64,000 bases of DNA from Novipirellula aureliae (GTDB taxonomy: Bacteria > Planctomycetota > Planctomycetia > Pirellulales > Pirellulaceae). The notes below the pieces were generated by a model, which saw nothing but the letters and a program-made list of their open reading frames with translations, made no database searches and was not told the origin of the DNA. The position numbers and the translations under genes are program-made. Where the stretch lies: NCBI RefSeq assembly GCF_007860185.1, contig NZ_SJPY01000001.1, forward strand, positions 519,132 through 583,131. Direction: 5' to 3'. This document shows, one piece after another, positions 11,632 through 39,157 of the stretch. Positions within the stretch are counted from its first letter, which is position 1. Every line of letters starts with the position of its first letter.

Positions 11632-11715
11632 GAGTAGGAGTAGGAGTAGGAGTAGGAGTAGGAGTAGGAGTAGGAGTACGAGTAGGAGTACGAGTACGAG
11701 TACGAGTACGAGTAG
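11632..11715. repeat. Hexanucleotide tandem repeat, 14 units
   Basis: Fourteen uninterrupted units of GAGTAG or GAGTAC in a row (84 bases). The first seven are all GAGTAG, then the two forms mix and end with GAGTAG. On the minus strand one frame reads alternating Tyr and Ser throughout, but this is a property of the repeat, not evidence of a protein. A simple-sequence tract of this kind is prone to slippage. It lies in the gene-free stretch downstream of leuA. Confidence 0.95.
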
Positions 11716-11792
11716 GAAAACACAGTCTTTTCAGGTGATTGGCAGCAATCGGCGGTTGCGTTTACCGAGTCGTGGCCATTTACCTGCTAAGG

Positions 11793-13391
11793 TCATTGTT
11801 TTTTGGGTTCGCCGATAATTCGGTTGATTGCATTTAGCATCGCCAATATCGTACTTTCGACACTGTCGGTGCTGACTCCGACGCCGCGATAGCTACGCCC
11901 TTTGTGCTCGACTTCCAAGTTGACTTCGCCGATCGCGTCACGTCCGAGAGTTGCACTACGGACGGAGAAATCCTTGCAAATGAGTGAAATGCCGGTGATT
12001 TTTTCAACGGCCCAAAACGCGGCATCGATCGGTCCGTCGCCTTGTTCGACTTGCTCGGTGTGTTCTTCGTCACCGTTCTTTAAGGTCAACCGGACCATCG
12101 GTTCGCGATTGGTTCCGCTGGTCACTTCGTAGTCGACCAACGACCATTCCTGCTTCATGTTGTCGCTGATTTGATGCTGGACCAAAGCGATGATGTCACC
12201 ATCGTAGATCTCTTTCTTCTTATCCGCCAATATCTTGAACTGCTCAAAGACCGCTTGCAATTGTTCGCTCGTTAAAGTGAACCCCAGTGTTTTGGCTCGA
12301 TCCGCCAAGGCGGCACGTCCACTGTGTTTTCCAAGCACCAAATCGGTCTTGGCAAAACCGACATCTTCAGGCGACATGATTTCGTAGGTGCTGCGTTCTT
12401 TTAGCATTCCATCTTGATGGATACCTGATTCGTGTGCGAACGCATTGCGACCAACAATCGCTTTATTTCTTTGCACGTGGATACCGGTCGTTTTGCTGAC
12501 CAAACGGCTCGTAGGAACCAATCGCTTGGTGACGATTCGCGTATCGCATCGAAAGAAATCACGACGCGTTTTCATTGCCATCACGACCTCCTCGAGTCCC
12601 GCGTTACCCGCTCGTTCACCGATGCCGTTGATGGTGCATTCAATTTGTCCCGCACCGGCGGCGACGGCAGCCAAGCTATTGGCAACTGCCATCCCCAAGT
12701 CGTTGTGGCAATGTGTGCTCAACACCGCTTTGTCGATGTTGGGTACCCGTTGGCGCAGCATGCTAAAGCGCTCGAAGATTTCGTTGGGTGTGGTGTAGCC
12801 TACGGTATCGGGAACGTTGATCGTTGTTGCTCCGGCGTCAATCGCCGCCTCGACGACGCGGCACAGAAAATCGTGTTCGGTGCGGCAGCCATCCTCGGGA
12901 GAAAACTCGACATCGTCACAGTAGCTTGCGGCTCGCCGCACGCCCGCGACCGCTCGCTCGACAATCTCATCGGTGCTCATTCGCAATTTGAATTCGCGAT
13001 GAATTGCACTGGTGGCGAGAAAGACGTGAATACGTGCCGAGGGTGCGTACTTGACCGCTTCCCACGCTGCATCGATGTCTTTGTCACTACAGCGGGCCAA
13101 GCCACAAATTGTTGATCCACGAACCGTTTGAGCGATCTGTTTGACCGCCTCAAAGTCTCCTGGCGAAGCGATTGGAAACCCTGCTTCGATGATGTCAACG
13201 CCCAAGTCTGCCAGTGCCTGAGCCACTTCCAATTTTTCCGCCAAGTTCATGCTTGCGCCTGGCGATTGCTCGCCGTCGCGAAGGGTTGTGTCAAAGATGC
13301 GAATCATCCGTGATTCGGTTTCCAATGGTCCGGAATTGGGTGCGTTGGGATCAGGTGAGACCGTTTGGTCATCCGTTGCAGAATTTGGCAT
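11793..13391 (-). CDS. leuA: 2-isopropylmalate synthase
   Basis: 532 residues. Condenses acetyl-CoA with 2-oxoisovalerate, the first committed step of leucine synthesis, in the cytoplasm. The catalytic TIM barrel opens with the signature R-I-F-D-T-T-L-R-D-G-E-Q-S-P-G, and the metal-binding H-C-H-N-D-L-G and the N-G-I-G-E-R-A-G-N-A loop are intact. The C-terminal regulatory LeuA domain (leucine feedback site) is present, ending in A-I-N-R-I-I-G. The ATG at 13391 is chosen because it leaves a short variable N-terminus before the barrel. The open frame upstream of it crosses an intrinsic terminator hairpin and a separate small leader frame, so it is not coding for LeuA. Expression is predicted to be controlled by the leucine attenuator at 13436-13611. 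Confidence 0.96.
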   Translation of the reverse strand: MPNSATDDQTVSPDPNAPNSGPLETESRMIRIFDTTLRDGEQSPGASMNLAEKLEVAQALADLGVDIIEAGFPIASPGDFEAVKQIAQTVRGSTICGLARCSDKDIDAAWEAVKYAPSARIHVFLATSAIHREFKLRMSTDEIVERAVAGVRRAASYCDDVEFSPEDGCRTEHDFLCRVVEAAIDAGATTINVPDTVGYTTPNEIFERFSMLRQRVPNIDKAVLSTHCHNDLGMAVANSLAAVAAGAGQIECTINGIGERAGNAGLEEVVMAMKTRRDFFRCDTRIVTKRLVPTSRLVSKTTGIHVQRNKAIVGRNAFAHESGIHQDGMLKERSTYEIMSPEDVGFAKTDLVLGKHSGRAALADRAKTLGFTLTSEQLQAVFEQFKILADKKKEIYDGDIIALVQHQISDNMKQEWSLVDYEVTSGTNREPMVRLTLKNGDEEHTEQVEQGDGPIDAAFWAVEKITGISLICKDFSVRSATLGRDAIGEVNLEVEHKGRSYRGVGVSTDSVESTILAMLNAINRIIGEPKKQ

Positions 13392-13435: not shown

Positions 13436-13468
13436 AAAAAAACCCGAGTCGCTTAGCGACTCGGGTTT
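13436..13468 (-). terminator. Intrinsic terminator in the leuA leader (attenuator, segments 3:4)
   Basis: Read on the minus strand, a perfect GC-rich stem of 13 base pairs (plus-strand arms 13440-13452 and 13456-13468) with a 3-base loop is followed at once by a run of seven U (plus-strand A 13436-13442, partly shared with the stem). It ends 45 bases before the leuA ATG and after the leucine-rich leader peptide, so it should stop transcription before leuA unless an alternative fold prevents it. Confidence 0.9.
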
Positions 13469-13494
13469 CGTGTGTTTTCAAAGATTGACCAAAA

Positions 13495-13575
13495 TTATGG
13501 TCGAAACAAACCCTCATCGCCGCCACGTAAACGTGGAATCAGGAGCAGCGATAGGAGGAGTGACGTTTGGTTCAT
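13495..13575 (-). CDS. leuL: leuA leader peptide (leucine attenuation peptide)
   Basis: A 26-codon frame with ATG at 13575-13573 and TAA at 13497-13495. The peptide begins MNQTSLLLSLLLIPRLRGG and has eight leucines, six of them within seven codons (codons 6-8 and 10-12), plus the rare TTA at codon 16. Leucine-codon clusters in a short frame just upstream of a terminator and leuA are the hallmark of ribosome-mediated attenuation: scarce charged leucyl-tRNA stalls the ribosome in the cluster. The stop lies 27 bases before the terminator stem. A sigma-70-type -10 box ends 6 bases before the ATG, so the message probably begins at or next to the start codon (leaderless). The symbol leuL is used by function, not by sequence kinship with the enteric peptide. 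The frame is too short for routine gene callers. Confidence 0.85.
   Translation of the reverse strand: MNQTSLLLSLLLIPRLRGGDEGLFRP
13508..13557 (-). promoter_or_regulatory. Attenuator segments 1 and 2 (anti-antiterminator / antiterminator)
   Basis: Segment 2 (13508-13520, RNA GCGAUGAGGGUUU) can pair with the whole 5' arm of the terminator (RNA AAACCCGAGUCGC, 13456-13468): 11 of 13 positions pair, counting one G-U, and this would block the terminator. Segment 1 (13548-13557, RNA CUCCUAUCGC) lies inside the leucine codons and can pair with segment 2 instead, at about 9 of 10 positions with wobble, freeing the terminator. A ribosome stalled on the leucine codons would cover segment 1 and favour antitermination. 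Between them lies a small extra hairpin (CCACG-UUUA-CGUGG, 13522-13535). Pairings were worked out by eye. Confidence 0.7.
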
Positions 13576-13581
13576 CCTCGT

Positions 13582-13611
13582 ATCATAGACAGCTACCGAC
13601 CGCAAAGTCAA
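13582..13611 (-). promoter_or_regulatory. Sigma-70-type promoter of the leuA leader
   Basis: On the minus strand, -35 TTGACT (13606-13611), an 18-base spacer and -10 TATGAT (13582-13587). The expected start of transcription is at about 13575-13576, the first base of the leader peptide ATG. Both boxes match the consensus in five of six positions, and the position relative to the leader supports it. Confidence 0.75.
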
Positions 13612-38886: not shown

Positions 38887-38960
38887 GCGATCGATGGGGG
38901 AAGGTAGGAGCGAAGGTGGTCACAAGGGTACGAGTGTTCTAAGTCAGCTCAGTTTTCCGG

Positions 38961-39157
38961 TAGGGGATCTTGGGAAAGATCCTTCAGTACTTGATTCTAC
39001 CGTAGTGGATCTTGTGAAAGATCCTTCAGTACTTCATTCTACCGTAGTGGATCTTGTGAAAGATCCTTCAGTACTTGATTCTACCGGCTAGTGGATCTTG
39101 GGAAAGATCCTTCAGTACTTCATTCTACCGTAGTGGATCTTCAACAAGATCCACTAC
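38961..39157. repeat. Tandem array of the GTAGTGGATCTT palindromic repeat (42-bp period)
   Basis: Four nearly identical units of 42-44 bases begin at about 38961, 39002, 39044 and 39086, each made of a GGATCTT...AAGATCC palindrome plus the linker TCAGTACTT(G/C)ATTCTACC. A fifth unit (39130-39157) is a perfect 12-bp inverted repeat, GTAGTGGATCTT-CAAC-AAGATCCACTAC. The array lies between fucI and the GH92 gene. The frame that runs through it only reflects the repeat. Confidence 0.93.

Follow-up and report, generated by a model that had tools for sequence, protein, structure and literature searches.

The leu attenuator of enteric bacteria (leuL of Salmonella and E. coli; Rfam family RF00512, Leu_leader) has clustered leucine codons, the rare CUA among them, before leuA and sets an antiterminator against a terminator. 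CUA serves as control codon in the Salmonella leu leader, where CUA-to-CUG replacement lowered sensitivity; other operons use major codons as control codons (PMC1183508). Alike by description are the Leu-rich peptide of the branched-chain synthesis attenuator of Staphylococcus aureus, in Firmicutes (PMC5794164), and trpL of Sinorhizobium meliloti, a tryptophan leader in Proteobacteria whose RNA begins with the trpL ATG itself and is possibly a leaderless mRNA (PMC7298713). The LEU element of Actinobacteria also has a Leu-run ORF before leuA, but is described as forming a pseudoknot, with the Leu run and the Shine-Dalgarno box of leuA paired in its base stem (PMC1262725). The authors of a 2010 survey knew of demonstrated attenuation from Proteobacteria and Actinobacteria alone and added Firmicutes to the list; Planctomycetes, leucine and leuA go unmentioned in the main text (PMC2965389). 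Short leader ORFs near genes, Planctomycetes included, are treated in PMC4833913, which proposes reinitiation and nowhere in its main text mentions leucine or leuA. In agreement with the initial annotation, which knew of no detailed report of such a leader in planctomycetes, we found none among the papers listed in the open-access literature searched; an earlier prediction may stand in the subscription survey by Lopatovskaya (2010), which PMC4833913 cites.

The 64,000-nt stretch of DNA analysed here (the window) carries, before leuA, what its sequence very strongly suggests is a leucine-responsive, ribosome-mediated transcription attenuator. It has the enteric features listed above and differs from the enteric system in that the leader mRNAs of its clade are predicted to be leaderless, in that segment 2 of the planctomycete leaders often includes the leader stop codon, and in that leuA and leuC do not form one operon, because leuC sits on a different contig. 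Unlike the LEU element as described above, it has a terminator between the Leu run and leuA.

Layout of the leuA upstream region

On the minus strand, a promoter, a leader ORF, an antiterminator segment, an intrinsic terminator and leuA follow one another in this order. The regulated gene, leuA (11793-13391), encodes 2-isopropylmalate synthase (NF002086, 753.6 bits; TIGR00973, 722.7 bits), and its nearest named counterpart, L001, labelled Pirellulales, is 71% identical. The leader ORF, from ATG 13575 to TAA 13495, has 26 codons plus the stop and resembles leaders in relatives; its putative translation product, MNQTSLLLSLLLIPRLRGGDEGLFRP, contains eight Leu, six of them encoded by the control codons 6-12 (CTC CTC CTA TCG CTG CTC CTG; 13540-13560). 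A short ORF with a run of end-product codons, here six Leu in seven, is expected of an attenuator, as is an intrinsic terminator between leader and structural gene, here a hairpin of 14 pairs with a loop of 3 (13469-13439) followed by a U tract of seven T (13442-13436). Its 5' arm, AAACCCGAGTCGC (13468-13456), is segment 3, and its 3' arm, segment 4 (13452-13439), extends into the U tract. Segment 2, the 5' strand of the antiterminator, GCGATGAGGGTTT (13520-13508), can form 11 pairs with segment 3. Within the control codons, the candidate protector segment 1, CTCCTATCGC (13557-13548), is able to pair with segment 2, and folding predicts a 1:2 (pause or protector) hairpin of -18.1 kcal/mol at 13558-13512. 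A terminator-like site at 13850-13819 belongs to the upstream GAPDH gene and is separate from the leuA terminator.

When the window was re-examined, the initial annotation proved right in its coordinates and counts for the promoter, leader and terminator before leuA, and the 26-codon leader with six Leu in a seven-codon run was reproduced. The pairing computation likewise returned the 11 positions claimed for segment 2 and the terminator 5' arm, and the 1:2 hairpin makes the proposed pairing of segment 1 with segment 2 possible in the window.

The leader length, correct in the window, is unusual. Among 24 leaders of the nearest relatives (six g240-type leaders and L257 left out), 22 end with UGA and two with UAG, typically as GGCGGGTGATGAGGGTTTG; in the alignment these stops fall at segment 2 or within it. 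Compared with L083, L084 and L235-L252, the window frame (13575-13495) is one base off just before segment 2, so that it misses the UGA within or next to segment 2 and runs to TAA 13495; this difference is either real or a sequencing error. Ribosomes usually cover ~15 nt to each side, and given this footprint a ribosome at TAA 13495 would keep the 3' half of segment 2 covered.

The promoter-like pair consists of TTGACT (-35; 13611-13606) and TATGAT (-10; 13587-13582), separated by 18 nt, and matches 10/12 consensus positions; shuffles of the 1.2-kb region yield 0.6 such sites, and the match alone is therefore not significant. Of 32 leaders from the nearest relatives and the window, 27 have TTGAC 34-37 nt ahead of their start (the alignment omitted L257_G413, whose best ORF is no leader). 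Across all 104 leaders described below, 13 have TTGAC at this distance, three of them in family f22, compared to 0.64 expected; most of the others have no promoter at this distance from the leader start. With 6 nt between the -10 box and the ATG, transcription would start at or next to the ATG, and the leader mRNA of the window is therefore probably leaderless. Shine-Dalgarno-like words precede 18/104 leader starts, and a survey that included one planctomycete genome noted signs of leaderless and/or S1-dependent initiation there (PMC5397173).

A search of the whole window at Rfam gathering level gave no match, T-box included. In a permissive search, RF00512 was the best of all Rfam families in the window, though sub-threshold (21.4 bits compared to the 50-bit cut-off; E 0.024; model positions 1-148 of 148). 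Searched alone at window size, the L083 leader matched RF00512 at 16.1 bits, behind rnk_leader (26.6) and others, and the L084 and L135 leaders gave no RF00512 match; none was found in ten whole relative loci either, in a less sensitive search with 136 times more sequence, where the window score would give an E of ~3. Membership in RF00512 was rejected, as the window falls below 50 bits and its match was not repeated in relatives. The mechanism is an already known one; the family found here in planctomycetes is widespread and scores below every Rfam cut-off.

Recurrence and loss of the leader before leuA

The upstream regions of leuA in relatives were scanned with a detector for a run of any amino acid (at least five in eight codons) in an ORF of 9-60 residues that ends near a hairpin with a T run, a looser cut being four Leu in eight codons. 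A first version, over-strict on hairpin ends, had matched 34/75 regions of the order and no Leu run in 294 shuffles; it was replaced by this one, which misses hairpins with weak U tracts. The input was 147 leuA regions: 75 from the order of the window (L001 included), 48 from six other families of the class and 24 from elsewhere in the phylum. One source contributed 59 regions new to this sample, and only L001 and L037 entered it from one set of 80 leuA loci; G018 (paralogue only), G019 (contig edge), the partial L193 and G228 (no locus) were omitted, and G040 entered twice. The locus of G040 (L119, contig C241) has two divergent leuA copies of equal score on either side of an inverted repeat, possibly an assembly artefact. 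From a later set of leuA loci, 25 new ones were used in the leader comparison with the nearest relatives and 20 further places as additional regions of the window's family.

In the order, a strict Leu-run leader plus terminator lies before leuA in 57/75 regions, and in 64/75 at the looser cut. The other families of the class have the strict layout in 26/48 regions (f22 12/16, f21 3/16, f23 6/11, f24 2/2, f25 1/1, f26 2/2) and the looser one in 36/48 (f22 16/16, f21 8/16, f23 7/11, f24 2, f25 1, f26 2). Elsewhere in the phylum a Leu run was found in 6/24 regions at both cuts, counting L177_G213, later dropped as an evident wrong match. Shuffles of the leuA regions gave 5/441 strict and 23/441 looser matches, and runs of other residues in the same 147 regions were limited to Ala (2), Ser (2) and Pro (2). 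Among the 20 further regions of the window's family, most of them one per genus, 15 were strict and 16 looser matches. The initial annotation had made its reading depend on the presence of the leader frame and the co-varying segments in relatives, and the reading held: leader, control codons, terminator and the 2:3 match are shared by most of the genomes sampled from the order and by some of the class's other families.

No Leu-run leader precedes ilvB, leuC, trpE or hisG in the 96 regions examined (600 nt searched, compared to 800 nt for leuA), which covered 25/30, 23/24, 24/30 and 24/30 loci respectively; most of the loci omitted were lower-scoring further copies, and at least one lay at a contig end. 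Before these genes, the scattered matches, Trp pairs and Arg, Ala or Ser runs, were taken as chance. Within the window, the leuA site is the only one of 180 hairpin-plus-T sites on both strands that stands behind a Leu run of at least five in eight codons.

The leader is absent at either cut from 11/75 regions of the order, and none of the forward frames upstream of leuA in these regions holds a Leu run; G023 and G014, among these 11, retain a CCCC-type hairpin. Within the window's family, it is absent before leuA from the four sampled genomes of genus g11 (G012, G346, G347 and G355; loci L089 and L385-L387) and from the one sampled genome of genus g233 (G328, L383). The leader of G002, which is of the window's own genus, has only four Leu.

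A variant form occurs in genus g69 of family f23 (L394-L400, L224 and L229), where the detector matched 2/9 genomes, plus one wrong match. A directed look found a leader (for example, MTVLPLLLDIRLLGPPRGRSSSRFDPK), a strong hairpin and a matching segment 2 in 9/9 genomes, a descriptive rather than a blind count since the hairpin motif was taken from those sequences. Three of these leaders have just four Leu in 12 codons, and the hairpin, CGGCCCCGGA, is close to leuA (23-51 nt away) and in most cases has a poor U tract. Leaders of this type may act on translation.

Before the pairing, codon and promoter analyses, two evident wrong matches were removed from 106 rows to leave 104 leaders: L177_G213 and L229_G062, for which the real leader was later found at another position.

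Segment pairing, control codons and folding

An antiterminator should match its terminator within each species, and the 2:3 duplex does so. With its own arm, segment 2 reaches 0.596 of the perfect energy, and with the arms of other genomes in the group 0.531 (Wilcoxon p 5.8e-8, n=104, an optimistic value, as are our other p values, because the genomes are not independent); the gain is absent in f21 (0.50 vs 0.53), f23 (0.58 and 0.58) and f26 (0.80 and 0.81). Against dinucleotide shuffles of the region, own pairing reaches 0.05 in 41/106 rows, with a mean z of -1.5. The match was also seen when leaders were aligned on the stop codon alone and arms on CCC alone (101/104 leaders entering the register analyses). 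In register -1, picked for its highest raw pairing before the permutations were seen, pairing was 0.551 in the order (n=64; permutation maximum 0.544) and 0.696 in f22 (n=15; maximum 0.688), values reached by 0/1000 permutations in either case. Registers -2 and 0 had no excess in this test, and registers 0, 1 and 2 no clear excess over permutation (lowest 65/500).

Rare control codons, usual for leu attenuators if not strictly defining, are present as a bias towards CUA, which accounts for 26.2% of Leu codons in the leaders of 54 genomes and for 1.9% in their leuA genes, is the more frequent in the leader in 40/54 of these genomes, and makes up 21.8% of Leu codons over all 104 leaders. Its share is 23.5% in leaders that stop with UGA, 22.0% with UAG and 16.7% with UAA; being equally high with UGA stops, the bias is no by-product of pairing to UAG.

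The switch was modelled on transcripts cut after segment 3, because the equilibrium fold of the full leader, in which the terminator prevails, shows no switch. Masking the Leu region raised the modelled mean P(2:3) from 0.27 to 0.70 in 99/104 leaders, the set also used for the segment 1 and sequestration analyses: P(2:3) rose by >0.1 in 75/99 and fell by >0.1 in none, and was at least 0.5 in 87/99 when masked and in 28 when unmasked. For window RNA starting at the ATG, masking took P(2:3) from 0.20 to 0.80. With a start 25 nt further upstream, P(2:3) was 0.80 even without stalling; in the model, then, 1:2 pairing competes only in RNA that begins near the ATG, as predicted by the promoter position. 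The masking result is necessary but not sufficient, since segment 2 tends to become free whichever 5' sequence is masked. Compared to synonymous codon permutations, 1:2 pairing was barely better (mean z -0.32, p 0.002, 99 leaders), and sequestration of segment 2 had a z of 0.33 (99 leaders). Of the four-segment arrangement put forward in the initial annotation, the leader, the 2:3 match and the terminator held, and segment 1 in the control codons drew weak support from the comparison of genomes.

Proposed mechanism and alternatives

The genomes themselves show which parts there are and in what order, that these are conserved, and that segments 2 and 3 match species by species; the following scheme would account for all of this. 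RNA polymerase would begin at the leader ATG or beside it, with a ribosome behind it. When charged Leu-tRNA is scarce (perhaps above all the CUA-reading one), this ribosome would stall in codons 6-12 and cover segment 1; segment 2 could then pair with segment 3, which would block the terminator and let leuA be transcribed. When leucine is plentiful, the ribosome would reach the stop codon and cover or disrupt segment 2, and segments 3 and 4 could then form the terminator before leuA. The transcription start, the stalling and the leucine dependence of read-through are predictions of this scheme.

The same leader and attenuation might do with three segments, a ribosome at the stop codon occluding segment 2 so that no protector hairpin is needed. 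The overlap of the best 2:3 duplex with the leader stop codon in 66/104 leaders, the use of UAG as stop in 74/101 and the small gain of 1:2 pairing over permuted codons speak for such a switch; yet the window does have its stable 1:2 hairpin, free 5' sequence brings the mean P(2:3) down from its masked value, and an untranslated leader would read through without any 1:2 pairing. On balance we hold this form of the switch possible but rather unlikely. Regulation akin to the actinobacterial LEU element, with the Leu codons and an RNA fold governing leuA translation or binding a protein and no true attenuation, is very improbable: no terminator appears in the description of LEU elements used here (PMC1262725), whereas in the window and the relatives compared a T run follows the hairpin and segment 2 offers segment 3 a species-matched alternative partner. 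What can be said for it is that changes to the Leu codons of the Leu-run ORF before actinobacterial leuA are reportedly without influence (PMC1262725), and that the g69 hairpin has the position and mostly poor U tract noted above.

Still less credit is due to a constitutive terminator that happens to lie before leuA, behind an unrelated gene for a small hydrophobic peptide. Leu-rich short ORFs may encode hydrophobic peptides, and the equilibrium fold of the full leader retains the terminator, but the layout recurs before leuA and not before the four other genes, and coincidence leaves the CUA bias and the species-specific 2:3 match unaccounted for. T-boxes and metabolite riboswitches can both occur before amino acid genes outside this phylum; either would be a most improbable explanation here, given that no Rfam family reached gathering score anywhere in the window and that the T-box was absent even among the sub-threshold matches.

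Leucine-responsive attenuation, the reading that we prefer, would add a widespread RNA family, unreported within the literature searched, to leader-peptide attenuation, and would give planctomycetes a concrete, testable amino-acid-sensing RNA switch built on a short leader ORF that gene callers possibly miss. On this reading, very probably the right one, the leader ORF and the RNA switch before leuA would tell this planctomycete through ribosome speed how well it is supplied with leucine. We think it fairly probable that attenuation of leuA is ancestral to the class of the window (Planctomycetia, by inference) and works in most lineages, with leaderless leaders in the window's clade and the stop codon inside the antiterminator, and that it offers genomic evidence for coupled transcription and translation, because attenuation requires a ribosome close behind RNA polymerase. 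The leader would also serve as a functional test of this coupling, for with no coupling there can be no such regulation; spatial separation of transcription and translation has been suggested in Gemmata (PMC5394234, PMC5287468).

The window also contains repeats: a (GAGTAG) hexamer in 14.3 copies (11632-11717) between leuA and the next gene, and a 42/86-base repeat array at 38960-39141.
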